From Acidimicrobiia bacterium (GTDB taxonomy: Bacteria > Actinomycetota > Acidimicrobiia > Acidimicrobiales > Poriferisodalaceae): DNA of 64,000 bases. Each line of letters opens with the position of its first letter. Positions within the stretch are counted from its first letter, which is position 1. Positions 47,375-63,190 of the stretch are shown in pieces. The stretch spans positions 1 to 64,000 of the forward strand of contig JAJDVQ010000001.1 of assembly GCA_022826045.1 (NCBI GenBank). Reading direction: 5' to 3'. The notes beneath the pieces were generated by a model. The model searched no databases. It saw only the letters and a program-made list of their open reading frames with translations, and was not told where the DNA came from. The translations under genes were made by a program, and so were the position numbers.

Positions 47375-47806
47375 GTGTCGGGGTCCGGTACGAAGCCCAG
47401 CCAATCGATCGACTCGCACCAGTCGACTACGAACAAGCCAACAACCACTGACCAAACCCTCCCAAATTTGGGGGGGGGAAGCCCACTGCCGCTGGGCGAC
47501 GTCGAGTTGGGCGTCCGCTACACGAAGACGGTCGAGCATGCCGGCACGGCCACCTTGTGGCAGCGCGTCGGCGACGGGTCCGTGCAGGTACTTGGAACTG
47601 TCGACCTCGAGACGATGCCGTACCGGCAGTTGCTGTACGGAATGGACATAGGGCGCGACCTCGGGCCCACGGTGAGCGCCGCCTACGTCGGGCCGAACGA
47701 GTTCCAGGGCACCCTGCTGCACGTGGAGTTCCGCTTGGAGAACGACCGCGACGATCTGCGCGCCGCAGCCGTGGTCGAAGCCGAGAACGCGCTGGTCGAC
47801 CAGTAG
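47375..47806 (+). CDS. Hypothetical protein with poly-G tract near the 5' end
   Basis: Frame of 143 aa from a GTG start. From residue about 40 the sequence looks protein-like (DVELGVRYTKTVEHAGTATLWQRVGDGSVQVLG, then LETMPYRQLLYGMDIGRDLGPTVSAAYVG). It belongs to no family I can name. The first 30 residues are low-complexity Ser/Thr. A run of nine G residues at 47470-47478 lies in frame in this segment, so slippage would switch the frame. The true start could be downstream of the tract. Confidence 0.5.
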   Translation: MSGSGTKPSQSIDSHQSTTNKPTTTDQTLPNLGGGSPLPLGDVELGVRYTKTVEHAGTATLWQRVGDGSVQVLGTVDLETMPYRQLLYGMDIGRDLGPTVSAAYVGPNEFQGTLLHVEFRLENDRDDLRAAAVVEAENALVDQ

Positions 47807-47812
47807 GCCCGC

Positions 47813-49696
47813 TCAGGGCTCGATCAGTGGTGCCGTGGTGAACACGGTGAGGCTGGCCAGCAGCGACTGCAGCAGGGCTCGATCGCCGGTGACCTCGGCG
47901 CGGTCGAGCGCACTGGCGTCGTTGAGCGCAGCGAAGAGCGTGGCCCGGTCGGTGCGGACCGAGGCGACGGCAGCAGGATCGACCGCATTGGCCCGGTGGT
48001 GCACAGCGGAACGGCCGACGCCGAGCACGTGATCCTCGCCGAGGTCGGTGAAGCGGAAGTTGAACGTGACCGGCCCCGCATCGAACGCGTCAGGGTCGAA
48101 CCGCACGCCGATCACGTCGAACAGGTGCTCGGCGCCCATGGCTTGGGACATGTCGCGAGTGGGCACCCGACCCCAATCAGGTGTGCCTTCCCGCAGCTCC
48201 TTGGCGCCCATCAGGTAGGCGTTGCGCCACGTCGCCGACTCGGACTGGTAACCGAGCTGTTCGAGCGCATCGGCTTGCAGGGTGCGGGCCTCGCGGTTCG
48301 CCGGGTCGGCGAACACCACGTGGTTGACCACCTGGGCCACCCAGCGGTACTCGCCCCGCTCGTAGCACTCGCGGGCTCTGGCCAGCACGGCATCAGCGCC
48401 GCCCATGAACTCGACGTAGTTGGCGGCCGCCTCGGCCGGCGGCAGCGGATTGAGATTGGCCGGGTTGCCGTCGTACCAGCCGAGGTAGCGGTTGTAGACG
48501 GAGCGGCAGTTGTGCGACACCGTGCCGTAGTAGCCCTGCACGTGCGATTCGCTGAACTCGGCCGGCAGCCGCAGCCGGGCGGCGATCTCGGTCGGCCGCA
48601 GCCCCTGGTTGGCCAAGCGCATCGTCTGGTCGTGCATCCAGCGGTACAGGTCGCGTTGCATCGACAGGAAGCCCCGCACGTCGGCGTTGCCGAACCGGGG
48701 CCAGTGGTGGCTGGCGAACATGACGTCGGAGTCGTCGCCCCACATTTCGAGCGCCTCGCCGATGTACTTGCTCCACGCCAGCGCGTCGCGGGTCTGCGCG
48801 CCCCGGATCGGGTAGAGGTTGTGCATCGTGTGCGTGCAGTTCTCGGCCATGCACAGCAGGTTCTTGTCGGGAAAGAAGAAGTTCATCTCCGCGGGCGCTT
48901 CGGCGTCGGGCGTGTTCTGGAACACGATCCGGATGCCGCTGAGCTCGCGCTCCTCCCCAGTGCGGGTGATGACGTCGGTGGGCGCCAGCAAGTCCGAGCG
49001 GGCGAGACCCATCGCCGAGCCCAAGCCGCAGTCGACGTGGCTCAATGGCCCGGGGGGCAGCAGCGGCCCGAACTGGTACGCAGCCCGCCTGCCCATGATC
49101 GGGCCGGCGATGACGAACTCGCTGACCACCTCTTCGAGGAACCCGTCCGGCGCAACGATCTCCACGTCGCCGCTGGCCACCGCCTCGGCGTCGGTCACGC
49201 CCAGCACGCCGCCGAAGTGGTCGGCGTGGGAATGGGTGTAGATGATTGCCCGCACCGGTCGGGCACCCAGCGTGCTGTTGGCGAGCTCCAGTGCCGCCGC
49301 CGCCGAGGGCCGGGTGGTGAGCGGATCGATGATCAGCCAGCCGTCGGAACCTGCCAGGAACGTGATGTTGGCGATGTCATAGCCGCGCACCTGCCAGACG
49401 CCGTCGGCCACCTCGAACAGCCCGTGATGGACGTTGAGCCGCGCCTGCCGCCACAGGCTCGGATGCACCGACGGGGGCGCCTCGGCTGATTCGTTGACGA
49501 AGGCGTGACGGGCCACATCGAACACGACGTGGTCGCCCATCAAGACGCGACCGTCGTCGATCTGGGCGATGAGTCCACGGGAAGCCCGCTCGAAGTCGCC
49601 CGGGTCATCGAAGGAGACCACCGCTGCGCTGTTGGCCGCGGCCGTGACCTCCGACGGCTCCCTCGGTCCCGCCATATCGGCCTCGTCGGCAGTCAC
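47813..49696 (-). CDS. SdsA-type alkylsulfatase (metallo-beta-lactamase fold)
   Basis: Hydrolase of 627 aa, full length for the SdsA1/YjcS family. The Zn-binding motif is IYTHSHADHFGGVLG; MAENCTHTMHNLYPIRGAQTRD holds the second metal/substrate region. The dimerisation and C-terminal SCP-2-like sterol-carrier domains follow (WYDGNPANLNPLPP; NHVVFADPANREARTLQADALEQLGYQ). It releases inorganic sulfate from primary alkyl sulfates such as dodecyl sulfate. There is no signal peptide, unlike Pseudomonas SdsA1, so it likely acts inside the cell. It follows the P450 gene by 43 bp. Confidence 0.9.
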   Translation of the reverse strand: MTADEADMAGPREPSEVTAAANSAAVVSFDDPGDFERASRGLIAQIDDGRVLMGDHVVFDVARHAFVNESAEAPPSVHPSLWRQARLNVHHGLFEVADGVWQVRGYDIANITFLAGSDGWLIIDPLTTRPSAAAALELANSTLGARPVRAIIYTHSHADHFGGVLGVTDAEAVASGDVEIVAPDGFLEEVVSEFVIAGPIMGRRAAYQFGPLLPPGPLSHVDCGLGSAMGLARSDLLAPTDVITRTGEERELSGIRIVFQNTPDAEAPAEMNFFFPDKNLLCMAENCTHTMHNLYPIRGAQTRDALAWSKYIGEALEMWGDDSDVMFASHHWPRFGNADVRGFLSMQRDLYRWMHDQTMRLANQGLRPTEIAARLRLPAEFSESHVQGYYGTVSHNCRSVYNRYLGWYDGNPANLNPLPPAEAAANYVEFMGGADAVLARARECYERGEYRWVAQVVNHVVFADPANREARTLQADALEQLGYQSESATWRNAYLMGAKELREGTPDWGRVPTRDMSQAMGAEHLFDVIGVRFDPDAFDAGPVTFNFRFTDLGEDHVLGVGRSAVHHRANAVDPAAVASVRTDRATLFAALNDASALDRAEVTGDRALLQSLLASLTVFTTAPLIEP

Positions 49697-49739
49697 GCCG
49701 ATGCCCGCTTCCCGTGACCCACTGCCGGAGATCGGCGCC

Positions 49740-50978
49740 TCAGCCGACGGCGGGGAAGCGGATCGGCAGGTAGCGAGGACCGCGCACCTGCCCGCCGGCC
49801 CAGGTGACTTCGTCGGGCTCGCTCACTTCGAAGTCGGGAATCCGCCGGAACCAGGTCCGCAGCGCGATGTCCATCTCGAGCCGCGCCAAGTTGGAGCCGG
49901 CGCAGCGGTGGATGCCCGCACCGAAAGCGACGTGACGGTTGTGAGGCCGGTCCAGGATCACTTCGTCGGGACGGTCGAACACTTCAGGGTCACGGTTCGC
50001 GCCGGGGAAGTTCATCAGCACCTTGCTGCCCGCCGGGATCGTGACGCCGCCGTAGGACACGTCCTCGGTGGCTCGGCGCCCCATGGTGACCGGGGCGTAG
50101 AAGCGCAGCAGCTCCTCGATGGCCGTCGGCCACAGTTCCGGCTCGGCCACCATGCGCTCGCGGTCCGCGGGGTGCGTGCCGAAGTGCCACAGCGCCGAGC
50201 CGATCGAGCTCCAGGTGGTGTCGATGCCCGCGATGAGCTGCAGGTTGAGCATGCCCACCACCATGACCGGATCGATCAGGCTGCCCTGATCGTCAGTTCC
50301 GGCAAGCAGCGCTGAGACGAACCCGTCGTCGGGGTCGGCCTGCTTCTCCTCGACGACCTCGTAGAAGAACTGCCGGATCACCTTGCGGTACTTGATGCGG
50401 AGCTGGGGATCGGTCAGCCCCAGCTCCAGCAGGCAGCGCACCCAGTGCGTGAACTCTTCCACCCTGCCCTCGTCGATTCCCAGCAGGTGCGCGATGACCC
50501 GGGGCGGGATCTGCTGGGCGTACTGACCGGCGCCATCGGCCTTGCCGGCATCGATGAAGTCGTCGATCAGGCGATCCGCCAGTTCTTGGGTGTAGTCGCG
50601 GTGCGCCTCTACGGCCTTCGGCGAGAAGTGCGGCAGCAGCAGCCGACGGGTCCAGCCGTGGATGGGCGGGTCTTCGGAGATCGGTGCGGCGTTGGTGCCG
50701 TACTTCTCGAACGTCGGGTCCGACAGGAGATCTTCGATCACTTCCGGCGGGGGCGAAGTCACCAAGGGGTCGCTGCTTGACAGCTCGGGCACCATCTTGG
50801 ACATCGCCTGCACGTCCTCGTAGCGAGTCGGCAGGAAGGAGCCGCCCCAGCGCTCGGTGCGGGCGATAGGGCAGCGGCCCCGTAGTTCCTCCCACACCGG
50901 CGCGGGATCGCGCACGTAGCCGGGGTCGAAGATGTCGTAGTCGGTATCCCAGTCGTCGACGGGTGCGGTGTCGGTCAT
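49740..50978 (-). CDS. Cytochrome P450
   Basis: Soluble haem monooxygenase of 412 aa. The I-helix oxygen motif is IAGIDTTWSS, the K-helix ExxR is EELLRFYAP, and the haem loop is FGAGIHRCAGSNLARLE with the Cys ligand. It needs a ferredoxin and reductase; the P450-type ferredoxin at 32108 is a candidate partner. It lies between the double-TetR gene and the alkylsulfatase gene on the same strand. Its C-terminal half closely resembles the other P450 at 53163, so the two are probably paralogues. Confidence 0.94.
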   Translation of the reverse strand: MTDTAPVDDWDTDYDIFDPGYVRDPAPVWEELRGRCPIARTERWGGSFLPTRYEDVQAMSKMVPELSSSDPLVTSPPPEVIEDLLSDPTFEKYGTNAAPISEDPPIHGWTRRLLLPHFSPKAVEAHRDYTQELADRLIDDFIDAGKADGAGQYAQQIPPRVIAHLLGIDEGRVEEFTHWVRCLLELGLTDPQLRIKYRKVIRQFFYEVVEEKQADPDDGFVSALLAGTDDQGSLIDPVMVVGMLNLQLIAGIDTTWSSIGSALWHFGTHPADRERMVAEPELWPTAIEELLRFYAPVTMGRRATEDVSYGGVTIPAGSKVLMNFPGANRDPEVFDRPDEVILDRPHNRHVAFGAGIHRCAGSNLARLEMDIALRTWFRRIPDFEVSEPDEVTWAGGQVRGPRYLPIRFPAVG

Positions 50979-51042
50979 CGGGGGCTCCTGTGTCGGGTGC
51001 GGTTCCAGTTCTTCGGAAGGGTTCTGACGGGGGCCTGGGGCG

Positions 51043-52224
51043 TCACGAGCTTGCGTATTTCTCGAAGTTCAGCAGCTTCGCCAGCACGCTCGCAGCGTAT
51101 TGCTCGAGCTCCTCCAGTCTGCGGCCCAGCGCGGCCCCGAGCAGCGGCTCGAACAGGGACCAGGCGAGCTGCGTGGCCGCGACGATGAGATAGCGACAGC
51201 GCTCGGACGGCCCGGGCTCGCCGTGACGCATGCGATGGCGGGCGAGCAGGGCGCTCACCACGGGGAAATGGTCATCCGCGAGCGCCAATTTGGCATCAAG
51301 AGCAACCCGGGTCAGCGCACGAACGTAACCAGGGTGAGCTCGCATCGAGAAGAAATCCGGCATCGAATCCGGACCTGACTCGGCCGCATAGAACTCGTCG
51401 CGAATCTGGCGTGATGCATGCTCGAGCACTTCGGCGGCCGAGCCGAAGTAGTGGTGGATCAGCCCGTAATTCACCCCCGCCCGAGCGGCCAGCTGACGCC
51501 CGGAGATGGCCGCTGGGGTCCGATCGGCCAGCAGTTCCACGCCTGCGGCCACCAGGCGCGTTTCGACCTCGGCGCGGCCCCGCTCTGCGCTGAGCGAGGC
51601 TGGGCGTGATCCTCGAGGCCGCACCGGCCGCGGCGCGATGGCGCTTCCGGCGAAGGGACCCCTGCCTGCGTGCAGACGTTCGATCGTCGTCACCAGCTCG
51701 CGATCGACGAGGTCTGCGTGATCGTCCAGCGTCGCGGAACGCGTCAGCGGCGTGCGGTGGATGCATACGCCGAGCTGCATCGAGCACGACAGCGCCACCA
51801 GCGTCGCCCGGGCGGTGGCATCCAGTTCAGGACGGAGGATCTGCAGGCCGCCGGAGTATCGCCGGACGACGGGGTTCTGGGGTCGCAGCGTCAGCGCGGC
51901 CTCGTCGAGCTGGATGTTGGCCAGGACACGCACGAACGACTCGTGGCGCACGGCCACGCCCGGTGTGGGCACCAGGGCGCCGGGCGGGAAGGCATCGTCG
52001 AGGTAGGCGTCTCCCAGCCGGTCGAGCACCTGGCGGCAGAGTTCGCGCTTGGAGCCGAAGTGGCGGTGGATCTGCGCGTAGTTGACGCCCGCGGCTGCTG
52101 CGATGCGACGGCCAGAGACCGCCGAAGGAGGCTCCTGGGTGAGCAGCTCGGTGGTTGCATCGAGCAGTGCTGTTGCGGGGTGCGGTGCCGCCGTGTCGAC
52201 CGGCGCCGCGTCGAGTGCAGCCAC
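51043..52224 (-). CDS. Tandem TetR-family regulator (two TetR units in one chain)
   Basis: Protein of 393 aa. There are two complete N-terminal-type HTH domains: residues about 20-65 (SGRRIAAAAGVNYAQIHRHFGSKRELC) and about 225-270 (SGRQLAARAGVNYGLIHHYFGSAAEVL). Each is followed by a helical ligand-binding region. A single TetR is about 200 aa, so this is a head-to-tail duplication or fusion that may act as an intramolecular dimer. GTG start with TAGATT 6 nt upstream. It heads the P450-alkylsulfatase operon and faces the dioxygenase operon, so it probably controls both. Confidence 0.88.
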   Translation of the reverse strand: MAALDAAPVDTAAPHPATALLDATTELLTQEPPSAVSGRRIAAAAGVNYAQIHRHFGSKRELCRQVLDRLGDAYLDDAFPPGALVPTPGVAVRHESFVRVLANIQLDEAALTLRPQNPVVRRYSGGLQILRPELDATARATLVALSCSMQLGVCIHRTPLTRSATLDDHADLVDRELVTTIERLHAGRGPFAGSAIAPRPVRPRGSRPASLSAERGRAEVETRLVAAGVELLADRTPAAISGRQLAARAGVNYGLIHHYFGSAAEVLEHASRQIRDEFYAAESGPDSMPDFFSMRAHPGYVRALTRVALDAKLALADDHFPVVSALLARHRMRHGEPGPSERCRYLIVAATQLAWSLFEPLLGAALGRRLEELEQYAASVLAKLLNFEKYASS

Positions 52225-52230
52225 ATGGCT

Positions 52231-52236
52231 AATCTA
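52231..52236 (-). promoter_or_regulatory. Putative -10 box of the TetR operon, leaderless start
   Basis: TAGATT on the minus strand, 6 nt before the GTG at 52224, within the 63-bp divergent region that must also hold the promoter of the dioxygenase operon. Confidence 0.45.
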
Positions 52237-52287
52237 GGCGAGCAGGGCGACGGTGCCGCGCCCAGCGAGCCGCGAAGGGGAACGAGC

Positions 52288-53133
52288 ATGCGTATCAACG
52301 CCGTGCAGCCGAAGGATTACAACCGCATCCGGGTCGAGCCGCTGACCGGCACGATCGGCGCCGAGATCCCCGATGTCGACCTGCGTGATCTCGACGACGA
52401 GCTGATCGCCGAACTGCACGATGCCTGGATGGACCACAAGGTGCTGTTCTTCCGCGATCAGGACCTGACCCAGGCCCAGCATGTGGCGTACGGGAGGGCA
52501 TACGGCGAGCTGGAGGTCCATCCCTTCACGCGCAATGTCGACGAGCACCCCGAGATCATCGTGCTCGAGTCCACAGCCGAGAAGTTCCAGGCCGCCGAGA
52601 CCTGGCACTCCGACGTCACGTTCCGCGAGTGCCCCCCGCTGGGCTCGGTGCTGCTGGGCCGCCTCATCCCGCCGCACGGCGGCGACACCTGCTGGGCCAA
52701 CATGGAGCTCGCCTACGAGCAGCTGCCGGACGATGTCAAGGAGCAGATCGACGGGCGCTACGCCATCCATTCCTACGTGAAGGCATTCGGCAGGTCCATG
52801 AGCGAGGCCGAGCGGGCCGAGACAGCAGAGCGGTTCCCTGACCAGAAGCACCCGATTGTGCGCACGCACCCGGTGACCGGACGCAAGAGCCTCTATGTGA
52901 ACCGGACGTTCACCCTCACCATCGACGGGATGTCGCCCGACGAGAGTCGTGACCTCCGGTATCTCCTCTACGACCAGGCCAGCACGCCGGAGTTCCAATG
53001 CCGGTTCCGCTGGCGTCCGGGGTCGATCGCCCAGTGGGACAACCGCTGCACCCAGCACTATGCGGTGCCCGATCACGGCGGTCTGCATCGCCGAATGGAG
53101 CGGGTCACGCTGGCCGGCGACCGCCCCGTCTGA
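52288..53133 (+). CDS. TauD/TfdA-family 2OG-dependent dioxygenase (AtsK-like)
   Basis: Protein of 281 aa. The iron ligands are in ETWHSDVTF (H-x-D) and TQHYAVPDHG (distal His); the 2OG-binding Arg is in HRRMERVTLAGDRPV. HKVLFFRDQDL and GGDTCWANMELAYEQLP are family blocks. The closest patterns are the taurine and alkylsulfate dioxygenases (TauD, AtsK), which oxidatively cleave sulfonates or sulfate esters; the adjoining alkylsulfatase and sulfatase genes favour the latter (inference). AAGGGG 8 nt before the ATG. First gene of a plus-strand operon of up to seven genes. Confidence 0.88.
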   Translation: MRINAVQPKDYNRIRVEPLTGTIGAEIPDVDLRDLDDELIAELHDAWMDHKVLFFRDQDLTQAQHVAYGRAYGELEVHPFTRNVDEHPEIIVLESTAEKFQAAETWHSDVTFRECPPLGSVLLGRLIPPHGGDTCWANMELAYEQLPDDVKEQIDGRYAIHSYVKAFGRSMSEAERAETAERFPDQKHPIVRTHPVTGRKSLYVNRTFTLTIDGMSPDESRDLRYLLYDQASTPEFQCRFRWRPGSIAQWDNRCTQHYAVPDHGGLHRRMERVTLAGDRPV

Positions 53134-53162
53134 TCGGCGAACCCCAGGATCCGGGCACCGAG

Positions 53163-54389
53163 ATGACCTACACCGACGACTCGATCACCGGCGATACGGC
53201 ATCGGCCATCCCGCCGGTCGACGATTTCGCCACCGACTGGGACTTCAACGACCCCGCGTGGGTGAACGACCCGTTCCCCATCTGGGAGGACCTGCGCGGA
53301 CGCTGCCCGATGGGCCACTCGGAGCGGTTCAACGAGGGGGTGTGGCTGCCGTTGCAGTACGACGACATCGTCGAGATCGCCAACGACACCGCCACGTTCT
53401 CCAACGTCCATCACGGCATCCGCCGCGGTGGCACCGTCGATCGCGGCTTCTTCCCGCCGATCAACAGCGATCCGCCCGATCACATGGAGATCCGCCGCAC
53501 ACTGCTGCCGTTCTTCGCTCCTAGGCGCATCGAGGGCTGGCGCAGCCACATTGCCGCCGACTGCGAGGCACGGGCCGCCGCCATCGCCGAGCAGGGCCAC
53601 GGCGACGCAGCCGTCGACTACAGCCAGCACATCCCGGTCGGCGCGATCGCAGCCATCTTGGGCATCGACCCTGCCGACGGCGACAAGTTCCGGGCCTGGA
53701 TCTTCGACATCCTCTCAGTCGGGCCCAGCGACGGCGCCGTGATGCAGCAGGCGATCATCGAGGTGCGCGAGTACATGGCCAAGGTCATGGCGGAGCGCCG
53801 AGCGGTGCCCGGCGACGATCTGATCAGCCACTTGGTCACGACCGAGATGGGCGGCGAGCCGTTGCCCGATCACCTCATCGAGCGGATGCTGGTGCTGCAG
53901 CTCATCGCGGGCATCGACACCACGTGGAGTTCGATCGGTGCAGCGCTGTGGCACCTGGCCGTCCACGACGACGACCGCCGCAGGCTCGTCGCCGAACCCG
54001 AGCTGCTGCCTACGGCCATGGAGGAGTTCCTCCGGGCGTACGCGCCGGTGAACGTCGCCCGGCGGGTCACCACTGACACCGAGGTGAACGGCGTCGAGAT
54101 GAAAGCCGGGGATCACGTCATGATGACGTTCCCCATCGGGTGCCGCGATCCCGAACGGTTCGAGCGGGCCGACGAGGTCGTGATCGACCGGGGCGAGAAC
54201 CGTCACATCGCTTTCGGGGCCGGCATTCACCGCTGCATCGGCTCGAATCTGGCCCGCCTCGAGATGGAGATCGCGCTCGGGACCTGGCTGCGGTACATGC
54301 CGGAGTACTCGATCGCCCCCGGGGCTGAGGCCACCTGGTCCACCGGTCAGATTCGAGGACCGCGGTCGATCCCCATCGTCGTCGATTGA
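53163..54389 (+). CDS. Cytochrome P450
   Basis: P450 of 408 aa. I-helix IAGIDTTWSS, ExxR in EEFLRAYAP, haem loop FGAGIHRCIGSNLARLEME. The whole C-terminal half tracks the P450 encoded at 49740 on the other strand, so the pair arose by duplication. It starts 29 bp after the dioxygenase gene. A hydroxylase role in the same pathway, such as alkyl-chain or terpenoid oxidation, is likely but the substrate is unknown. Confidence 0.94.
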   Translation: MTYTDDSITGDTASAIPPVDDFATDWDFNDPAWVNDPFPIWEDLRGRCPMGHSERFNEGVWLPLQYDDIVEIANDTATFSNVHHGIRRGGTVDRGFFPPINSDPPDHMEIRRTLLPFFAPRRIEGWRSHIAADCEARAAAIAEQGHGDAAVDYSQHIPVGAIAAILGIDPADGDKFRAWIFDILSVGPSDGAVMQQAIIEVREYMAKVMAERRAVPGDDLISHLVTTEMGGEPLPDHLIERMLVLQLIAGIDTTWSSIGAALWHLAVHDDDRRRLVAEPELLPTAMEEFLRAYAPVNVARRVTTDTEVNGVEMKAGDHVMMTFPIGCRDPERFERADEVVIDRGENRHIAFGAGIHRCIGSNLARLEMEIALGTWLRYMPEYSIAPGAEATWSTGQIRGPRSIPIVVD

Positions 54390-54398
54390 CAACTGTTA

Positions 54399-54411
54399 CG
54401 CAATCGTTGCG
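54399..54411. promoter_or_regulatory. Small palindrome upstream of the ABC transporter genes
   Basis: CGCAATCGTTGCG is a perfect 5-bp inverted repeat with a 3-nt centre, 100 bp upstream of the substrate-binding protein gene. It may be an operator for a TetR-type protein; no second copy was found near 52.2 kb. Confidence 0.3.
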
Positions 54412-54513
54412 CGTCGCGGCGCGCGGCACCTTGCAGTCTCACTAACGTGCAGCCAATTGGCTAGCGCCGTGAACCTCAGGGGTCGGCGCGGAGAAATCTG
54501 GGAGGGCAATCTC

Positions 54514-56211
54514 GTGAGAGGGCCTACGCGGCGTGTGATGCGCCTCATGACCGTGCTGCTGGCGTTCGTGCTTGCAGCAAGCGCCTGCGGCGGCGGCGAT
54601 TCGGATTCCGGGTCGGGAACGGCGTCGGCGACGACCGCAGCGCCTGCGACGACTGCTGCGGCGGCACCTGCGCCTGCCACCACGCAGGCACAGACACAGG
54701 TGACTATTGCGGCGGTCGAGCAGACCACCACCACACAAGGTGCGGTGACCACGACTCAAGCCCCCCTGCCACCGCCTGTGGGCACCCTGCGCATGGTCGA
54801 GTTCTCCCCGGTGACCAGCTTCAACCCGGCCGCATCGCAGTCGGCGCAGAGCGCGTACCACTACCCGGCGTATGACACGCTCACCCGCCAGCGCAACGAC
54901 TTCAGCTTGGCGCCGTCGCTGGCGACCTCGTGGACACAGCCGTCGCCGAACGTGTGGCGCTTCACCGTGCGTGACGACGTGGTGTTCCACGACGGCGCTG
55001 CATTCAACGCCCAAGTGGCCGCGGACAACATGCTGTACCACGCCAACTTCCCGGGCAATCCGAACGCGGCGACGTGGGCGGCCTTCCTCGACGCTCGTGT
55101 GATCGACGACACCACCTTCGAGGTCGAGTTCTCGGTGCCCGCACCGCAGTTCCCGCTGGAGATGTCGATGGTGATGGGCATGATGATCAGCCCGAACGCG
55201 CTCGACGGCAGCGACCTCACCCGCGACCCGCAGGGTTCGGGGCCGTGGATCTGGTCTGACGCCGACAGCCAGGCCGGCGTGACCGAGGTGTACCACCTCA
55301 ACCCGAACTACTGGAACCCGGCCGACCAGGGCGTCGAGACCGTGACGGTGACGGCCGTGCCCGACAACAACGCACGCCTGAACGCGCTGCTGACCGGCGA
55401 GGCCGACATCATGTCCACCACGCGGGACGCGCAGATTGACGCAGGCGTGGAGGCCGGGAACGTGCTGATCTCGGTGCCGAACTTCTTCGCCTATCTCATC
55501 GTCACCGACCGTGCCGGCGAGTTCGACTCCCCGCTCGCCGACCAACGGGTGCGGAGGGCGATCCTGCTCTCGCTGGACCGTGACGCGTATGCGAATGCGA
55601 TGCACTTCGGAAAGGCGGACAGCCTCGGCGGCATCTACCCGCCGGCGTTCAGCCAGTTCAACGTCCCCGAGTTGGACACCAAGTACACCTACGACCCCGA
55701 AGAGGCCCGGCGCCTGCTGGCCGAAGCGGGCTACCCCGACGGGGTGACCATCCGCATGCCGATCATGCCGGCCATCAACCCGATCGTGGAGTTCGTGGTG
55801 CAGATGCTGGGAGCGTCGGGCATCAGCATCGAGCTGATCCAGATCAACAACGGCGAGCTGGGTCCCGGCACGGCCACTGCACAGTGGGGCATCTCGTGGT
55901 TCCGCGACCTGCTGGTGCACCCGGCGCGCGACCTGGGCAAGTTCATGGGCGAGGCCGGTCGATTCAACGCATTCGGCCTTGACGACCTCGACGACCTCGA
56001 AGCCACGCTGGTCGAAGCGCTGAATGCACCGTCGCCCGAGGAGGGCTACGAGCTGTACGCAGCGGTCATGGAGGGTCTCATCGATCGCGGCGCGGTGATG
56101 CCGCTGGCTCACGGCGGTCAGAACGCTCTGTACGCCCCGTACGTGACTGGCGTGTCGCTGGGGTTGAACATGCAGGCACCGATGCCCTACGGCGTCCGAA
56201 TCGACGGCTAG
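54514..56211 (+). CDS. ABC transporter substrate-binding lipoprotein, family 5 (peptide/nickel/opine type)
   Basis: Lipoprotein of 565 aa. The signal peptide ends in the lipobox LAASAC, so Cys is lipidated and the protein is anchored outside the membrane. A Thr/Ala-rich linker of about 65 residues follows, then the SBP_bac_5 domain (TLRMVEFSPVTSFNPA, WRFTVRDDVVFHDG, LSLDRDAYANAMHFG). Family 5 proteins bind peptides, opines, sugars or other organic solutes. GGAGGG is 7 nt before the GTG start. First of the transporter genes. Confidence 0.92.
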   Translation: MRGPTRRVMRLMTVLLAFVLAASACGGGDSDSGSGTASATTAAPATTAAAAPAPATTQAQTQVTIAAVEQTTTTQGAVTTTQAPLPPPVGTLRMVEFSPVTSFNPAASQSAQSAYHYPAYDTLTRQRNDFSLAPSLATSWTQPSPNVWRFTVRDDVVFHDGAAFNAQVAADNMLYHANFPGNPNAATWAAFLDARVIDDTTFEVEFSVPAPQFPLEMSMVMGMMISPNALDGSDLTRDPQGSGPWIWSDADSQAGVTEVYHLNPNYWNPADQGVETVTVTAVPDNNARLNALLTGEADIMSTTRDAQIDAGVEAGNVLISVPNFFAYLIVTDRAGEFDSPLADQRVRRAILLSLDRDAYANAMHFGKADSLGGIYPPAFSQFNVPELDTKYTYDPEEARRLLAEAGYPDGVTIRMPIMPAINPIVEFVVQMLGASGISIELIQINNGELGPGTATAQWGISWFRDLLVHPARDLGKFMGEAGRFNAFGLDDLDDLEATLVEALNAPSPEEGYELYAAVMEGLIDRGAVMPLAHGGQNALYAPYVTGVSLGLNMQAPMPYGVRIDG

Positions 56212-56294
56212 GCCTGCCCGTCACACCACCTTGGGCCGTCAAGTAACTTTCGCGGACTTGGCGGCCCAGCGCAGACGGCACACCGACGTGGTGG

Positions 56295-56313
56295 CCGGGC
56301 CGCCGCGGCCCGG
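56295..56313. terminator. GC-rich hairpin between binding-protein and permease genes
   Basis: CCGGGCCG-ccg-CGGCCCGG is a perfect 8-bp stem 84 nt after the binding-protein stop and 37 nt before the permease start. It has no T-run, so it is probably a partial terminator or an mRNA-stabilising structure that keeps binding-protein expression above that of the downstream genes. Confidence 0.45.
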
Positions 56314-56350
56314 CCGCCGCGGGTGCCGTTGCCGAACAGGGGGGTGCTAG

Positions 56351-57295
56351 GTGCTTCGACTGCTGGTCAGTCGAGTGCTCGCGGCAATCCCGCTGATGCT
56401 CATGGTGGCCACGCTGGTGTTCTTTTTGGCCCAGCTCAACCCGGTCGACCCGGCAGCCACCATCATGGGCGACGACGCCGACTTGGAGTCGCTGGCTGAG
56501 AAGCGCGCCGAGTTGGGCATCGATCGCCCGCTCGTGGTGCAGTACTGGGATTGGCTGAACAGCGCAGTCGTCGGAGATCTCGGCACCAACTGGTTCAACG
56601 GCGAGGAGATCACCACCGAGCTGCGTGACCGCATCCCGGTCACGCTGTCGATGGTGTTCGGGTCGCTGATCGTGGCGCTGGGCATCGGCAGTGCGTTCGG
56701 CGTGCTGGCGGCGCTCAAGGCCGGCAGATGGCCCGATCGCACCATCACCGTCGCCTCGTCGCTGGGGCTCGCGGTGCCCAACTTCTGGATCGGCTTGGTG
56801 CTCGCCTACTACGTCGGCGTCAAGCTGCAGTGGCTTCCGGCCATCTGGCCCACGACCCGGCCCGACTCGCTCGCCAGATGGATCGAAGCCCTGATCTTGC
56901 CGTGCGTGGCGCTGGGGATCTCGGCATCGGCGGCCATCGCCCGGCAGGCGCGCTCGTCGATGATCGGCGTGCTCCAGCGTGACTACGTGCGCACGGCGCT
57001 AGCCAAGGGACTGCCGGTGCGCCGCGTGGTGTCGCGTCACGCCATTCGCAACGCAGCGATCCCGGTGGTGACGCTGGCGGGCTTTCAGACCTCGGCGCTG
57101 ATCGGCGGGTCGATCTTCGTCGAATTCGTGTTCAACGTGCCGGGGCTCGGCCGCTTCGGGGTCGACGCCATCCTGCGCCAGAACATGCCGGCCCTGCTCG
57201 GATTCGTCATGGTCACCGCAGCGGTGGTGGTCGTCGTCAACATCGTGCTGGATCTCAGCTACGCCTGGCTGAACCCGAAGGTGAGGCCGGAGTGA
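56351..57295 (+). CDS. ABC transporter permease, DppB/OppB type
   Basis: Membrane protein of 314 aa with about six transmembrane segments. The first is VLAAIPLMLMVATLVFFLAQL. The large periplasmic loop with LGIDRPLVVQYWDWL is typical of the DppB group. The ATPase-contact EAA-like loop is DYVRTALAKGLPVRRVVSRHAIRNAAIPV. GTG start with a G-rich ribosome site. The stop overlaps the start of the fused permease-ATPase gene in GTGA. Confidence 0.93.
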   Translation: MLRLLVSRVLAAIPLMLMVATLVFFLAQLNPVDPAATIMGDDADLESLAEKRAELGIDRPLVVQYWDWLNSAVVGDLGTNWFNGEEITTELRDRIPVTLSMVFGSLIVALGIGSAFGVLAALKAGRWPDRTITVASSLGLAVPNFWIGLVLAYYVGVKLQWLPAIWPTTRPDSLARWIEALILPCVALGISASAAIARQARSSMIGVLQRDYVRTALAKGLPVRRVVSRHAIRNAAIPVVTLAGFQTSALIGGSIFVEFVFNVPGLGRFGVDAILRQNMPALLGFVMVTAAVVVVVNIVLDLSYAWLNPKVRPE

Positions 57296-59415
57296 GCGAC
57301 GCACTCGCCGGACTGGGCGGTTCCGCCGACGCAGGCGAGCTCGCGAGCCCCGCGCCCATGCCCCAGGAGTCAGCCGCGGGAGCCACCCGGAGCCGCTTCT
57401 GGGCGCGCCTGCGGCGAAACAAGGTGGCGATGGCGGGAGCGGTCTACCTGGTCCTCGTGGTGATAGCGGCGATCTTCGCCCCTCTGCTCACCTCGCATGA
57501 CGAGACGTTCGCCACCCGATTCCAGGACATCCTGTTCAGCCCGGGCGAGGCGGGCTACGTGCTCGGCACCGACCACGTCGGGCGGGACATCCTGACGCGC
57601 ATCTTCTTCGGGGCGCGGTACGCCCTGATCGCAGGGGCCGAGGCCGTGCTGGTGGCGCTTGTCATCGGCGTGCCGTTCGGGCTGGCCATCGGCTACTTCC
57701 GCGGCTGGGCCGACCGGATCGGCATGCGGTTCGTCGAGATCGTCGTGGCCGTGCCTGCCGTCGTGATGGCGATGGCCATCATCACCGGCCTCGGCACGGG
57801 ACTCACCAACGCCATGCTGGCGATCGGCTTGGTGTTCTCGATGATCATCACCCGCTTGGTGCGGGCGGAGGTGTTCGCGGCCCGCGAGGAGTTCTACGTG
57901 GACGGCGCCCGGGCTGCGGGCGCGTCGGACCGGCGCGTCATGTGGCGGCACATCCTGCCCAATGTGGCGCCCCCGCTGATCGTGCAGACCACGTTGCTGT
58001 TCGCCCAGGCGGTGCTGGCCGAGGCCGCGCTCAGCTTCCTGGGCATCGGCGCCGATGCCAGCCAAGCGAGCTGGGGCCGGATGCTGCGCGATGCAGAGCT
58101 CAGCATCGATCGCACGATCTGGCCGGCCATCCCGCCGGGGATTGCCATTTTCCTCACGGTGGTGGCGTTCAACGTCTTCGGCGACGGGTTGCGCGATGCG
58201 TTCGCCCGTGAGGCCCGCGGCGGGCGCGTCGGCGTCGGCGATGTCATGCCCAAGGAGCGCAACGCTGCATCGGCGCCTCCATGGCCGCCCGGCAGCGACG
58301 ACCCCCTGCTGAGCCTGCGAGGGCTCGACATCGTGTTCCCTAAGCCCGGTGAAGGCACCGACATGACCGTCGTGCGCGATGTCAACCTCGATATCGGCCG
58401 GGGCGAGGTGATGGCGCTCGTCGGCGAGTCGGGTTCGGGCAAGACCATCACGGGACTGTCGTTGATGGGCTTGGTGCCCGACCCGGGCCAGGCCAGCGCC
58501 GAGTCGATCGTGCTGGACGGCCGGGAACTGGTCGGGATGGACTTCAACGATCTCCGATGGATCCGCGGCCGGGAGATCGGCATCATCTTCCAGGAACCTT
58601 CAGCGGCGCTGAACCCTGCCTACACGGTCGGCCGCCAGGTTGCCGAACCGCTGCGGGTCCACTTGGGCATGTCGAAGCGCGAAGCCCGTGAGCGTGTGAT
58701 CGAGCTGTTCACCGAGGTCGGCATACCCGACCCCCACAAGCGCATCGATGCGTTCCCGCACCAGTTTTCCGGCGGCATGGCTCAGCGGGTCATGATCGCG
58801 ATGGCGCTGTCGTGCGAACCGAAGCTGCTGATCGCGGATGAGCCCACGACGGCGCTGGACGTGACCGTGCAGGGCCAGATGCTCGATCTGGTGAGCGAGT
58901 TGGCCCGCTCGCGTGGCGTGTCGGTGCTGCTGATCACCCATGACCTGGGCGTCGTGGCCGACCTGGCCGATCGGGTTGCGGTCATGTATGCGGGCGAGAT
59001 CGTCGAGACGGGCCGCCTCGCCGATGTCTTCGCCACACCGCGCCATCCCTACACCGAGGGTCTCATCGCGGCGATCCCGCGCAACGAGCCACGCTCGGGC
59101 GATCTGCCCACGATTCCGGGCGTCGTGCCGCCGCCGTGGGCGTGGCCCGACCGGTGCCACTTTGCAGACCGCTGCCTGTATGAGGCAATCGAGTGCCGGC
59201 GCGGCCCCGTGGAGCTGAGGCCCATGGGAGCATCGCTCACACGCTGCGAGCGCAGTCACGAACTTGAATTGCGCGGAGTGCAGCACGCATCTGTGGTGGC
59301 CATCGCAGGATGGGAACAGCCGTCCGGCGAGCCCGGGTCCGGCGGTGTGATGCCCGGCCTCCCGCCCGGCGGTGTGATGCCCGGCCTCCCGCCCGGCGAA
59401 GGAGGGCCGGCGTGA
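57292..59415 (+). CDS. Fused ABC permease (DppC type) and ATPase (DppD type)
   Basis: Protein of 707 aa joining two subunits normally made separately. Residues 1-310 are the permease: helix 1 AGAVYLVLVVIAAIFAPLL, GTDHVGRDILTRIFFGARYAL, and the EAA loop DGARAAGASDRRVMWRHILPNVAPP. Residues about 335-640 are the ATPase: Walker A GESGSGKT, signature FSGGMAQRVMIAMAL, Walker B LLIADEPTTALD, and the C-terminal oligopeptide/dipeptide-transporter region with Cys. The tail holds a twice-repeated GGVMPGLPP unit of 27 bp. GTG start and stop both overlap neighbours by 4 bp. Confidence 0.92.
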   Translation: MSDALAGLGGSADAGELASPAPMPQESAAGATRSRFWARLRRNKVAMAGAVYLVLVVIAAIFAPLLTSHDETFATRFQDILFSPGEAGYVLGTDHVGRDILTRIFFGARYALIAGAEAVLVALVIGVPFGLAIGYFRGWADRIGMRFVEIVVAVPAVVMAMAIITGLGTGLTNAMLAIGLVFSMIITRLVRAEVFAAREEFYVDGARAAGASDRRVMWRHILPNVAPPLIVQTTLLFAQAVLAEAALSFLGIGADASQASWGRMLRDAELSIDRTIWPAIPPGIAIFLTVVAFNVFGDGLRDAFAREARGGRVGVGDVMPKERNAASAPPWPPGSDDPLLSLRGLDIVFPKPGEGTDMTVVRDVNLDIGRGEVMALVGESGSGKTITGLSLMGLVPDPGQASAESIVLDGRELVGMDFNDLRWIRGREIGIIFQEPSAALNPAYTVGRQVAEPLRVHLGMSKREARERVIELFTEVGIPDPHKRIDAFPHQFSGGMAQRVMIAMALSCEPKLLIADEPTTALDVTVQGQMLDLVSELARSRGVSVLLITHDLGVVADLADRVAVMYAGEIVETGRLADVFATPRHPYTEGLIAAIPRNEPRSGDLPTIPGVVPPPWAWPDRCHFADRCLYEAIECRRGPVELRPMGASLTRCERSHELELRGVQHASVVAIAGWEQPSGEPGSGGVMPGLPPGGVMPGLPPGEGGPA

Positions 59416-60488
59416 GCGAGCCGCTGCTCCACATAGACGACGTGACGATCGTCTTCCCTGGCGGGAGAGGAGCGCTGCCGTGGCAGAAGCTGCCCGACGT
59501 CCGGGCGGTGCAGCATGTGTCGTTGCAGATCGACGCCGGCGACACGCTGGGGCTCGTCGGGGAGTCGGGGTCGGGCAAGACCACGCTCGGCCGCGCCGTG
59601 CTGCGCTTCCTGCGACCCGAGAGCGGATCGATACGGCTCGGCGACTTCGACGTCACCGGGTTCGGTCGCCAGGTGCCCACCGAGTACCGCAAGACCGTGC
59701 AGGTGGTGTTCCAGGACCCGGTCGGCTCGTTGAACCCCTCGATGGTGGTCGGCGCCATCATCGCCGAGCCCTTGCGCATCCACTTCGGCATGGACTCGGG
59801 AACGGCGCGAGAGCGGGCCGGCGAGCTGCTCGAGCAGGTCGGGCTGCAGCGCCATCACCTCGATCGGTACCCCCATGAGTTCTCGGGCGGCCAGCGGCAG
59901 CGCATCGCTGTGGCACGAGCGTTGGCAACCGAGCCCGATCTGCTGGTGCTCGACGAGCCCGTCTCGGCGTTGGATGTCTCCACCCAGAGCCAGGTCATCA
60001 ACCTGCTCGAACGCCTCCAGCGCGAGACCGGTGCGGCCTACCTGCTGATTGCCCACGACCTGGCCGTGGTGCGTCATACCTGTCACCGCATCGCGGTCAT
60101 GTACCACAGCCGCATCGTCGAGCTCGGAGACTCTGACGACATCTGTGAACGCCCGGCGCATCCCTACACAGAGCTCCTGCTGGCGTCGATTCCCGATCCC
60201 GACCCGGCGGTGCAGCACGTCAAGTCACAGCGCCGACGCGAGCTGGCCCAGGGCGTGGCGGGGGCCAGCGGTCGAGCCCCGACCGACAGCTGCCCGTTCG
60301 CCGAGCGATGCCCCCATGTGATGGACGTGTGCCGGGAGTCGTTCCCCGAGCCGGTTCCCACTGCCACAGGCGGGACGGTGTGGTGCCACCTGCACACCAG
60401 TGGGCCGATGCTCGGCGGCCAACCGGTGAGCGAACTCGCAGCGGGTACCTCGACGGCCCAGGTCTCGCCACCAGCGGCTGATGGCTGA
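59412..60488 (+). CDS. ABC transporter ATPase, DppF/OppF type
   Basis: ATPase of 358 aa. Walker A is GESGSGKTTLG, the Q-loop QVVFQDPVGSLNPSM, the signature FSGGQRQRIAVARAL and Walker B LLVLDEPVSALDVSTQSQ. The C-terminal CPFAERCPHVMDVC is the Cys-rich segment of oligopeptide ABC ATPases, which may hold an Fe-S cluster. It powers import together with the fused permease-ATPase and DppB-type permease. GTG start overlaps the upstream stop; its end overlaps the sulfatase gene by 8 bp. Confidence 0.93.
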   Translation: MSEPLLHIDDVTIVFPGGRGALPWQKLPDVRAVQHVSLQIDAGDTLGLVGESGSGKTTLGRAVLRFLRPESGSIRLGDFDVTGFGRQVPTEYRKTVQVVFQDPVGSLNPSMVVGAIIAEPLRIHFGMDSGTARERAGELLEQVGLQRHHLDRYPHEFSGGQRQRIAVARALATEPDLLVLDEPVSALDVSTQSQVINLLERLQRETGAAYLLIAHDLAVVRHTCHRIAVMYHSRIVELGDSDDICERPAHPYTELLLASIPDPDPAVQHVKSQRRRELAQGVAGASGRAPTDSCPFAERCPHVMDVCRESFPEPVPTATGGTVWCHLHTSGPMLGGQPVSELAAGTSTAQVSPPAADG

Positions 60489-61866
60489 GGAACCAGGATC
60501 CGAGCCGGGCAGTCCCGACGCCGGCCGTCCGAACATTCTGTTCGTGTTCGTCGACAACCTCGGCTACGGCGAGCTGGGCTGCTACGGCGGCGGCGAAGTG
60601 CGGGGCGTGCCGACGCCGAACATCGACCGTCTGGCAGCCGAAGGCATGCGCCTCACCAACATGAACATGGAGGCGCAGTGCACGCCGTCGCGTTCGGCGG
60701 TGATGACGGGCCGGCTCCCGATCCGCTCCGGAACCGTCCGCATCCCGTTGCCAGGCCAGCCCAGCGGCTTGACCCGCTGGGAGATCACCCTGGCGGAGCT
60801 GCTGTCCTCGCAGGGCTACCGCTGCGGTCACTACGGGAAGTGGCATCTGGGCGACAGTCCGGGACGCCAGCCGCACGAGCGGGGCTTCGACGAGTGGTGG
60901 GGCCTGACCGAGACTCACGACTCCTCGTTGTGGTCCTCCGAGGCGGGCTACGACCCCGAAGTCGTGCCTCCCGAGCAGCTGTTGGAAGGTCGCCGAGGCG
61001 AGCCGAGCACACCAGTGGGCGCCTACGACCTCACCCAGCGAGCGTTGTTCGACGCCGAGGCGTTCGGGCGCGGCGAGGACTTCATGCGTCGCTGCGTCTC
61101 GGAGGGGCAGCCGTTCTTCTTGTACCTGCCGCTGGCGTTCCCGCACTTCCCGACGCTGCCGCACCCCGACTACGCCGGCGTCACCGGCCTCGGCGATTTT
61201 GCCGATGCCTTCCGCGAGACCGACGACCGGATCGGCCGTCTGGTCGGGGTGCTCGACGAGCTGGACATCGGCGGCGACACCTTGGTGATCTTCACGAGCG
61301 ACAACGGCGCGGAGGACGTCCTGCCGTGGAGAGGCTGGACCGGCCCGTGGGGCGGCTCGTACTTCACCGCCATGGAGGGCAGCCTGCGGGTGCCGTTCAT
61401 TGCCCGCTGGCCGGGCCGCATTCCCGCAGGACGGTCGAGCAACGAGCTGGCGCACGCCACCGACATCTTCACCACGCTGGCGAGGGTGGCCGGGGCCGAG
61501 GTCCCCGATGACCGGCCCATCGACGGCGTCGACCTGATGCCATGGCTGGAGGGCCCGTCGGACAGTTCCGGGCGTGAATCGGTGCTGTGCTTCGTGGCAG
61601 ATCGGCTGCACGCTGTCAAGTGGCGCCACTGGAAGCTCCACTTCATCTGGCAGGAGTACATGGGCGATCCGCCGGTCGAGCTCAGCATCCCGCGTGCTTT
61701 CAATCTCTACGACGATCCCCGGGAGCGCCACGACGTGTTCCTGCCGTCCAACACCTGGGTCCAGCGGCCGGTGATGGCTGCGATGGCGAAGTTCTGGGAC
61801 AGCGTGGCCGCGCACCCGCTGATCCCGGTAGGAGCGGAGGATCCGTACGTGCCTCCTGCTGTGTGA
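60481..61866 (+). CDS. Type I sulfatase (formylglycine-dependent, arylsulfatase family)
   Basis: Protein of 461 aa. The sulfatase signature EAQCTPSRSAVMTGRLP carries the Cys of C-x-P-S-R that is converted to formylglycine, so a formylglycine-generating enzyme must exist elsewhere. Metal-site motifs are ILFVFVDNLGYGELGCYGG and FTSDNGAED; YGKWHLGDS is the second family signature. No signal peptide, so the enzyme acts in the cytoplasm, fitting desulfation after import by the ABC system encoded just upstream (8-bp overlap). Confidence 0.92.
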   Translation: MAEEPGSEPGSPDAGRPNILFVFVDNLGYGELGCYGGGEVRGVPTPNIDRLAAEGMRLTNMNMEAQCTPSRSAVMTGRLPIRSGTVRIPLPGQPSGLTRWEITLAELLSSQGYRCGHYGKWHLGDSPGRQPHERGFDEWWGLTETHDSSLWSSEAGYDPEVVPPEQLLEGRRGEPSTPVGAYDLTQRALFDAEAFGRGEDFMRRCVSEGQPFFLYLPLAFPHFPTLPHPDYAGVTGLGDFADAFRETDDRIGRLVGVLDELDIGGDTLVIFTSDNGAEDVLPWRGWTGPWGGSYFTAMEGSLRVPFIARWPGRIPAGRSSNELAHATDIFTTLARVAGAEVPDDRPIDGVDLMPWLEGPSDSSGRESVLCFVADRLHAVKWRHWKLHFIWQEYMGDPPVELSIPRAFNLYDDPRERHDVFLPSNTWVQRPVMAAMAKFWDSVAAHPLIPVGAEDPYVPPAV

Positions 61867-61876
61867 AGGACACAAG

Positions 61877-63190
61877 ATGAGCAAGCAGTCGAACACAGCC
61901 GACGAGGCGGCGGGCCACGGATCGGCCCAGGGCATCCTGGCCGGCATCAGGGTGGTGGAGTTCGCGCAGAACGCAGCGATCCCGCACTGCGGCCGCCTGC
62001 TGGCCGGCATGGGCGCCGACGTCGTCAAGGTCGAGCCGCCCGGCGGCGATGCGATGCGATCGCTGGCCTCGCTGGCGCCGATGGAGGCAAAGGCCTACGC
62101 GCTGATCAATCCCGGCAAGCGGGCGATGGTGCTGGACCTGAGCCATCGGGATGCAGCCGAGGTCGTCGACGGGCTCTTCGAGTGGGCCGACGTGGCGCTC
62201 GTGGCTTTCAAGCAGGGCGATCTCGAGCGCTACGGCATCGACCCCGATCATGCGCTCGAGGTCAATCCGCGTCTCGTGTATCTCGCGCACACCGCGTTCG
62301 GGCCCGAGGGCGCCGATTCCCGCCTCGGCGGCTACGACGTTCTGGTGCAGGCCCGCAGCGGCGCCGGCTTCATCATGAACCGGGCCGAGCAGGGTGTGCC
62401 GACGAGCACGAGACCGGCGGTGAACGACTTCGGCACCGGCATGATCTCGGCCCTGGGCGTGGTCGCTGCGCTGCGTCACCGTGACCTGACCGGCACGGGC
62501 CAGCGTGTCGACAGCTCCCTGCTGGGCACGGCGATGTCACTGGCCACGCCGATGATCGGCGGCTTCGAGAGCGACGAGGAGGTGCTCGCCGAGCTGAAGC
62601 AGGATGTTGCTGCGGCCCGTTCCGCCGGCATGGGCTTCGTGGATCAGCGGCGCATGTACGAGGAGCGGATCATCCCCGGCGCGGGCGCGTTCCGGATCTA
62701 CTTCCGGACGTACATGACCGCCGACGGCATGATCAGCGTGGCGGGCCTGAGCCCGGCGCTGCGCCAGAAGTTCCACGAGGTCACCGGCCTGCCCGACGTG
62801 GACTTGCGTGCGCCGCACACTGACGAGTTCGACGAGTTCGTGGCGGAGGCGGAGCGGTTGTTCCGGACCCGTACGACCGCCGAATGGCTAGAGGCGTTTC
62901 GGGAAGTCGAGTTCCCCTGCGGTCCGTACAACCTGCCCTATGAGGCACTGGAAGACGATCAGATCCGGGCCAACGACTACGTCGTCGACCTCAAGCACCC
63001 GGCGTTCGGGCGCTACACGACATCGGGGATGCCGTTGCGTTTCAGCGAGGTCGGCAACCCGGTGCTGGGTGCGTCCCCGCAGTACGGCGAGCACACCCGC
63101 GAGATGTTGGCCGAGCTCGGCCTCGATGCAGACAGCGTCGAGCGCCTCGTCGCTGCGTCCGTCGTCGCCGACGGCCCGCCGCCGGAGTGA
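61877..63190 (+). CDS. CaiB/BaiF-type (class III) CoA transferase
   Basis: Protein of 437 aa. ILAGIRVVEFAQNAAIPHCGRLLAGMGADVVKVEPPGG is the N-terminal signature, and GYDVLVQARSGAGFI contains the catalytic Asp. PRLVYLAHTAFGPEG and the C-terminal GEHTREMLAELGLD also fit. It transfers CoA between acids; partners are formyl-, oxalyl-, carnitinyl- or benzylsuccinyl-type compounds in known members. Here it is 10 bp after the sulfatase gene, so it probably activates the desulfated acid for breakdown. Confidence 0.9.
   Translation: MSKQSNTADEAAGHGSAQGILAGIRVVEFAQNAAIPHCGRLLAGMGADVVKVEPPGGDAMRSLASLAPMEAKAYALINPGKRAMVLDLSHRDAAEVVDGLFEWADVALVAFKQGDLERYGIDPDHALEVNPRLVYLAHTAFGPEGADSRLGGYDVLVQARSGAGFIMNRAEQGVPTSTRPAVNDFGTGMISALGVVAALRHRDLTGTGQRVDSSLLGTAMSLATPMIGGFESDEEVLAELKQDVAAARSAGMGFVDQRRMYEERIIPGAGAFRIYFRTYMTADGMISVAGLSPALRQKFHEVTGLPDVDLRAPHTDEFDEFVAEAERLFRTRTTAEWLEAFREVEFPCGPYNLPYEALEDDQIRANDYVVDLKHPAFGRYTTSGMPLRFSEVGNPVLGASPQYGEHTREMLAELGLDADSVERLVAASVVADGPPPE

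Follow-up and report, generated by a model that had tools for sequence, protein, structure and literature searches.

The window, as we call the whole stretch of 64,000 nucleotides analysed here, contains an intact and conserved gene for a double-TetR repressor of the Mce3R kind, a design that is rare but has been described before. The new part is a predicted near-palindromic operator, located at the promoter of tetR itself and at a transporter operon. We consider it probable that the protein acts as a single-chain repressor, in which the N and C halves would pair within the chain, clamp two near-palindromic operators and be released by a ligand. The family is far from Mce3R in sequence and brings together a predicted operator, two sites per intact locus and relatives in the form of two unfused genes; it also includes relatives with a single TetR gene close to the shared core site, and fusions that arose independently more than once. 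With it, the reasons for TetR gene fusion can be put to the test, as can the question whether fusion permits operator asymmetry.

Two TetR units in one reading frame

The gene occupies positions 51043..52224 on the minus strand, with a GTG start at 52224 and a stop ending at 51043, and encodes 393 amino acids. Translation of the window shows a frame that is open throughout (0 internal stops). The whole protein matches TetR_N (PF00440) at 75.4 bits in two stretches, and when each half is searched by itself, as the original prediction proposed, both score above the Pfam cut-off of 24 (N half 45.0 bits, C half 33.1 bits). The first HTH covers residues 20-65 (52030..52167, minus strand; recognition helix VNYAQIHRHF) and the second residues 224-269 (51418..51555, minus strand; VNYGLIHHYF). 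A genome profile search puts them 204 residues apart, in agreement with the spacing of about 205 claimed beforehand. Each HTH is followed by a ligand-domain-sized helical region, also as claimed: the helices of the AlphaFold models span about residues 59-186 (51667..52050, minus strand) and about residues 263-384 (51073..51438, minus strand). The linker between the halves (about residues 190-214; 51583..51657, minus strand) is helix-free until 217 in the models. The two halves align at 35% over 103 residues, and of seven TetR_N matches in the genome at E 0.001 two fall in the double TetR. The top NCBIfam model for the protein is BetI, at 52.7 bits far below its cut-off of 201.3. Both halves of the predicted models have the all-helical fold with a C-terminal ligand domain and match solved TetR chains (Z 10-13 per half), so that a loss of the TetR fold in one half, which would have spoken against the original prediction, is not seen.

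That one half alone serves DNA binding, with the other vestigial or purely structural, is in our judgement very improbable. Such a division of labour would fit the fused relatives from Rhodospirillaceae and the paralogues in the genus, in which the N HTH scores far below the C HTH (about 29-48 against 60-79 bits). In the window protein, however, both HTHs are intact, reach similar scores against the family profile (104.6 and 107.4 bits) and pass Pfam.

The full-length fused gene is present in 7 of the 11 genomes of the genus, our own included. The six others carry uninterrupted frames of 396 to 457 codons that cover the query, at identities of 98, 94 and, in four cases, 70%; the remaining genomes have either no match (three) or distant paralogue matches only (G004). 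A genome of the same family adds a fused frame of 386 codons at 50% identity. The fusion is therefore real, and neither a product of chance nor an assembly join. Relatives do occur as two separate overlapping genes, which would suit an assembly, frameshift or read-through artefact, but with a gene intact at 70-98% identity across the genus, and again in the family, we rejected this explanation and grant it practically no credence; likewise the stop or frameshift between the halves that would have undone the original prediction is absent.

More distant fused proteins were found in Acidimicrobiales (L028, 39%) and in MAGs labelled Rhodospirillaceae (L029, L035, L036) and Gammaproteobacteria (L030, L031, L033). 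Further double TetRs in the genus (L064:4878-6185, L065:8401-9690) have a poor N HTH, about 39 against 61 bits. Four others (L066:7215-8453, L067:9251-10483, L095:1393-2598, L098:1378-2685) have N and C halves that are mutually closest in the tree; because their own halves are nearest kin, L066/L067/L095 and L098 represent separate fusions by internal duplication. A fused relative in G018 is apparently split over two contig ends (L070 on G018:C51 and L071 on G018:C32).

The fold of the double TetR was predicted with two single-chain AlphaFold models, built from 9 sequences (pLDDT 81.9, pTM 0.82) and 15 sequences (pLDDT 85.7, pTM 0.85). Foldseek gave Mce3R (9b7y) as the sole PDB match of model 1 at E 0.001 or better (E 2e-6), with loose agreement (TM 0.44-0.45, rmsd 9.5). 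VIA-align matched the models to 9b7y at Z 21.3 and 22.3 over 342 residues (model range 9-387; rmsd 6.8 and 6.0 A), and its next-best rows were single TetR chains covering one half (Z 13.1 and 12.8); the absence of other double TetRs from these fold-search lists excludes nothing. Since both models align with 9b7y over both halves, the two complete TFR units of the polypeptide are predicted to be placed roughly as in Mce3R. The models thus support the proposed covalent pseudo-dimer of two TetR halves in one chain and make it an already known kind, and it is the likelier because relatives are encoded as two adjacent overlapping genes. The structure prediction proposed as a check of intramolecular dimerisation agrees with it in the placement of the halves. 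Pairing itself, with the intrachain four-helix bundle between the halves that belongs to the Mce3R kind, would go beyond what single-chain models show.

Two chains could instead pair N with N and C with C, giving a four-HTH dimer with two clamps on symmetric sites. We hold this arrangement to be unlikely, although TetR units normally homodimerise and the single-chain models are compatible with it. The authors of the Mce3R structure drew it as an alternative before the structure was available, and Mce3R also forms a dimer of chains, according to the account of that work (PMC11667970). Against it stand the Mce3R-like placement of the halves in the models and the predicted operators described below.

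Neighbouring genes and predicted operators

As the original prediction had it, tetR lies between two divergent catabolic sets. Behind it, and likewise on the minus strand, are a cytochrome P450 (49740..50978) and an SdsA1-type alkyl sulfatase (47813..49696). On the plus strand, divergent from tetR, are a TauD/TfdA-type dioxygenase (52288..53133) and a second cytochrome P450 (53121..54389); the closest solved relative of both P450s is P450cin. An ABC-transporter operon of the peptide/nickel type follows on the plus strand. Its solute-binding protein is given as 54457..56211, the earliest possible start being taken, though GTG 54514, behind GGAGGG, is the likelier one. The stretch 56351..60488 comprises a permease (56351-57295), a permease-ATPase with both domains in one 707-residue frame (57292-59415) and an ATPase (59310-60488); behind the transporter are a sulfatase (60481-61866) and a family III CoA-transferase (61877-63190), both also on the plus strand. 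These gene names suggest a role in the breakdown of sulfate esters, terpenoids or lipids.

The window also carries a sulfatase remnant at 47495-47803 (plus strand; residues 649-750 of 750). At this place a full-length sulfatase, 63% identical to that of L027, is found in L021, L024 and L025; here the rest of it has been replaced, whether by a deletion, by an insertion or by a join in the assembly. Beyond the window, the same contig carries a further sulfatase of full length (L075:7976-10195), with about 51% identity to that of L027.

Alignment of the region preceding tetR revealed a conserved stretch over its start codon in 7 of 7 sequences from the genus. The candidate site in it has the 16-bp form YTAGCC-N4-GGCTGC, which occurs at two places 2,232 bp apart. 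Predicted operator 1, TTAGCCATGTGGCTGC (52217..52232, minus strand), spans the start codon of tetR in the divergent region between tetR and tauD, and predicted operator 2, CTAGCCAATTGGCTGC (54449..54464, minus strand), lies upstream of the ABC-transporter operon. It is a conserved candidate for the palindromic or near-palindromic operator that a two-HTH TetR clamp would bind. Because of its position over the start codon, operator 1 falls only half within 52225-52287, the stretch originally proposed for footprinting. A -10-like TAGATT (52231..52236, minus strand) ends 6 nt before the GTG, suggesting that the tetR message is leaderless. In L027, whose protein is 50% identical, the site again covers the start codon. 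In L028 the site (L028:5915-5930) occupies the position of the start codon expected from the alignment, where the codon reads GTA, and the first start codon of a usual kind follows about 60 bp further on.

A site matrix was built from six entries of the fused family, five of them distinct and none carrying the symmetric arm, and was used to scan the collected loci, 898,203 bases with repeats. The scan found the second site of the window, 54449-54464, and its counterparts in L021 and L023-L026, and none in L022. It also brought out a symmetric site, TTAGCC-N4-GGCTAA, at loci with unfused tetR pairs (L032, L034, L037, L041, L042, L085, L086; L034 ends at a contig edge, where the downstream TetR alone is visible), at the fused gene of G018 (L070) and near single TetRs of Nocardia and Rhodococcus (L058, L061, L063), along with weaker matches elsewhere (scores 11-18). 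The L070 site is upstream of the gene and faces an ABC solute-binding protein gene. Those near the single TetRs (L058:2908-2923, L061:6761-6776, L063:5884-5899) accompany proteins with the helix VNYGLIHHYI, beside a family 3 amidohydrolase gene. At two Rhodospirillaceae MAG loci that carry a fused relative with a weak N HTH (about 30 bits), the half-degenerate sites TTAGCCATATGCATAA (L035:9312-9327) and TTAGCCATATGTATAA (L036:3848-3863) are equidistant from a downstream frame.

After removal of duplicates, 8 of the 43 named loci (463,727 bases in all) had the symmetric palindrome, with 10 different sites among them, against at most 2 sites for each of the other 179 half-site permutations. With five-letter arms no excess was seen in the same 43 loci (TAGCC 11, best permutation 11), and with 3 mismatches allowed the count in the window was near chance (7 against 3.8). 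A wider regulon could not be established in the own genome, where matches to looser patterns were scattered and fewer than those of reversed controls (15 against 34, 10 against 87 and 37 against 110). Among the matches listed in the open-access literature, neither an operator of this form nor a natural TetR gene pair was found; TTAGCC does appear in one candidate site of the BkaR report, where it is marked unbound (PMC3920632).

The arms of the predicted operator are slightly unequal. Sixteen of 17 fused-family sites (13 from the genus, two from L027, one from L028 and one from L070) have the arms YTAGCC and GNAGCY, L070 being symmetric; the 13 genus sites were selected for the GGCTGC arm, which the search pattern fixed, and the second L027 site is weak (13.1 of a matrix score of 27.5). 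The inner AGCC/GGCT arms match and the consistent differences are confined to the outer one or two bases, so that the asymmetric operator suggested in the original prediction is partly supported, in these outer bases, and a strong asymmetry was not seen: compared with the TTAGCC-N4-GGCTAA of the pairs, the fused-family YTAGCC-N4-GGCTGC is near-palindromic with slightly unequal arms. These sites also speak against the pairing of two chains on symmetric sites. Indeed, both sites in each intact locus of the genus combine YTAGCC with GCAGCC, though the pattern fixed one arm, and the exact symmetric TTAGCC form is absent from the own genome.

The recognition helices suggest which half reads which arm. 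In the 15 fused proteins aligned, the helix of the C half reads VNYGLIHHYF without exception; this helix recurs in 5 of 7 downstream genes of the pairs (VNYGLVHHYF in the other two) and in most single TetRs of L038-L060, while the N-half helix in the genus is VNYAQIHRHF. Probably, then, the YTAGCC arm belongs to the C half and the GNAGCC arm to the N half, and the changed arm would be the one read by the N half. The N half has an Arg54 that, by a near one-residue offset and the residues named for Mce3R, probably corresponds to Mce3R Arg53. As a simple rule for the changed arm this residue found no support, L070 having Arg there and a symmetric site. For most single TetRs with VNYGLIHHYF (L038-L057, L059, L060) no good site was found in their own loci.

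Within the genus, the presence of the site follows that of the gene. The exact form YTAGCCNNNTGGCTGC has 13 occurrences in the 11 genomes, all at the tetR locus: it is found in 7 of 7 genomes with the fused gene (twice in six, once in G001) and in 0 of 4 without it, for which a random draw gives p 0.003, relatedness not being allowed for. Its reversed control yields 10 matches in the same genomes, scattered. In the G001 record (L022) the second P450 matches in part only, and the locus therefore differs or is misassembled there. In the class, the symmetric form TTAGCCNNNNGGCTAA occurs in 6 of 345 genomes, with three copies in G222, two each in G261 and G384, and one each in G056, G189 and G363; two or more copies are restricted to the three genomes in which an unfused tetR pair was found. 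The reversed control of TTAGCCNNNNGGCTAA occurs in about 43 of the 345, with two copies in 4, so two copies alone are unremarkable and it is their coincidence with pairs that is remarkable (1.5e-7 by random draw, the cut at two copies having been set once the data were known, and with no correction for relatedness). As the pair search scored only five candidates per genome, some pairs were possibly missed.

This co-occurrence bears on another reading, in which the start-codon site belongs to the promoter and the start of translation, or else to a different regulator, with the double TetR binding at some other place. The overlap of the site with the -10-like hexamer, the start codon and codons 2-3 would agree with that reading, as would the single symmetric copies in three of the 345 genomes without a detected pair and the 23 near-relatives that have the same C-type helix and no site in their own loci. 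We nevertheless think it decidedly unlikely: within the genus the site tracks the gene and within the class it tracks the pair, no tetR start is near the second copy at 54449-54464, the copy in L028 does not coincide with a usual start codon, and the single TetRs of Nocardia and Rhodococcus also have the site nearby.

The single-chain repressor that we favour would work as follows. Two complete TetR units, the N half and the C half, would pair inside one chain, for which Mce3R is the precedent; with its own halves paired, a single polypeptide would suffice for the clamp of two HTHs, for which ordinary TetR proteins need two copies. The clamp would bind the 16-bp YTAGCC-N4-GGCTGC at both predicted sites. 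Binding at 52217-52232 would block tetR itself, the P450 and alkyl sulfatase that follow it and, probably, the divergent dioxygenase-P450 genes, while binding at 54449-54464 would block the ABC-transporter operon. A pathway compound would then occupy one or both ligand domains and free the DNA, as for TetR proteins generally. The lineage would probably descend from two overlapping tetR genes whose products paired on a symmetric site.

Unfused TetR pairs and the history of the fusion

Adjacent unfused TetR gene pairs were found in Acidimicrobiia (L032, L037, L041, L042, G261, G384). A 4-bp overlap between the two genes in L037, L041 and L042 suggests translational coupling. The sites in the pair genomes are near frames read as ABC ATPase, P450, AMP-ligase, enoyl-CoA hydratase and acyl-CoA dehydrogenase, names given mostly by reading and, for the P450s, by comparison. 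The P450s at the symmetric sites of L034, L153, L155 and L158 share 59.9-62.6% identity with the P450 of the window at 49740-50978. A synteny argument from the enoyl-CoA hydratase failed, the L027 enzyme being 30% identical to those of the pairs.

A first quick tree, from which 10 distant TetR rows had been removed beforehand, had weak joins and long branches. A second tree comprised 50 halves, with L021, L022, L026 and many single TetRs left out; five identical halves had also been dropped from the material. One of its branches (95/84) has on one side the N halves of the window family, the proteobacterial N halves and the upstream genes of the pairs. On its other side are every C half and downstream gene, together with the single TetRs and the N halves from two further fused groups; N half and upstream gene alone are joined at 79/73. 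That all fused TetRs of the tree go back to a single origin was rejected: forcing the N halves into one group lowers the log-likelihood by 114 units, and forcing the C halves by 120 (p <1e-50). In the same kind of test, a late internal duplication of the window N and C halves gave p 0.11, and the grouping of the window C half with the downstream genes of the pairs p 0.21 (p 0.22 when the proteobacterial C halves are added). The swapped groupings of halves and genes (p 0.09 and 0.06) were not rejected at 0.05.

The likely order, to judge from these comparisons, is a pair first and a fusion later. More tentatively, it is possible that a coupled heterodimer pair acting on a perfect palindrome became fused, and that the N half and one operator arm then drifted together to a slight asymmetry at both promoters; two clamps might also pair, as proposed for Mce3R, and bridge the operators 2.2 kb apart.

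Comparison with known TetR systems

BetI and other single-unit TetRs share with each half of the window protein the TetR_N HTH and the TetR-like fold, but they are one unit long and form homodimers, whereas the window protein has two units in one chain. The unfused pairs of Acidimicrobiia have related halves, the same operator core and a related P450 target, and differ in being two genes with a symmetric operator where the window has one gene with an unequal-armed predicted operator. To our knowledge, no description of these pairs has been published. Engineered single-chain Tet repressors reportedly are laboratory constructs made from one and the same TetR. Like the window protein, they have two TetR units joined in one chain (PMC1797012).

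Mce3R (Rv1963c, Mycobacterium tuberculosis, 9b7y) differs from the window protein in several respects. The sequence match is weak and limited to the HTH (22.2 bits, rank 23 among PDB sequences, below many single TetRs), and identity to the window model in the structure alignment is 13%. Mce3R adjoins an mce operon, whereas the genes at 47813-63190 encode P450s, a dioxygenase, sulfatases, an ABC transporter and a CoA-transferase; judged by sequence match and neighbours, the window protein is no evident orthologue. Mce3R is reported to bind 25-bp non-palindromic sites at the mce3 operon, whereas the window site is a predicted 16-bp near-palindrome. The likeness lies in the design. Mce3R too has two TetR units in a chain of about 400 residues, and it is the best and only strong structural match over both halves. 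In its cryo-EM structure, the first of a double TetR by its authors' account, both HTHs on one site come from one chain, and the same report mentions 204 similar double-TFR proteins predicted earlier in Actinomycetes (PMC11667970). Mce3R is also described as autoregulated and divergent from a repressed operon, with lipid-related targets (PMC11667970, PMC2277422), which resembles what is predicted for the window gene.
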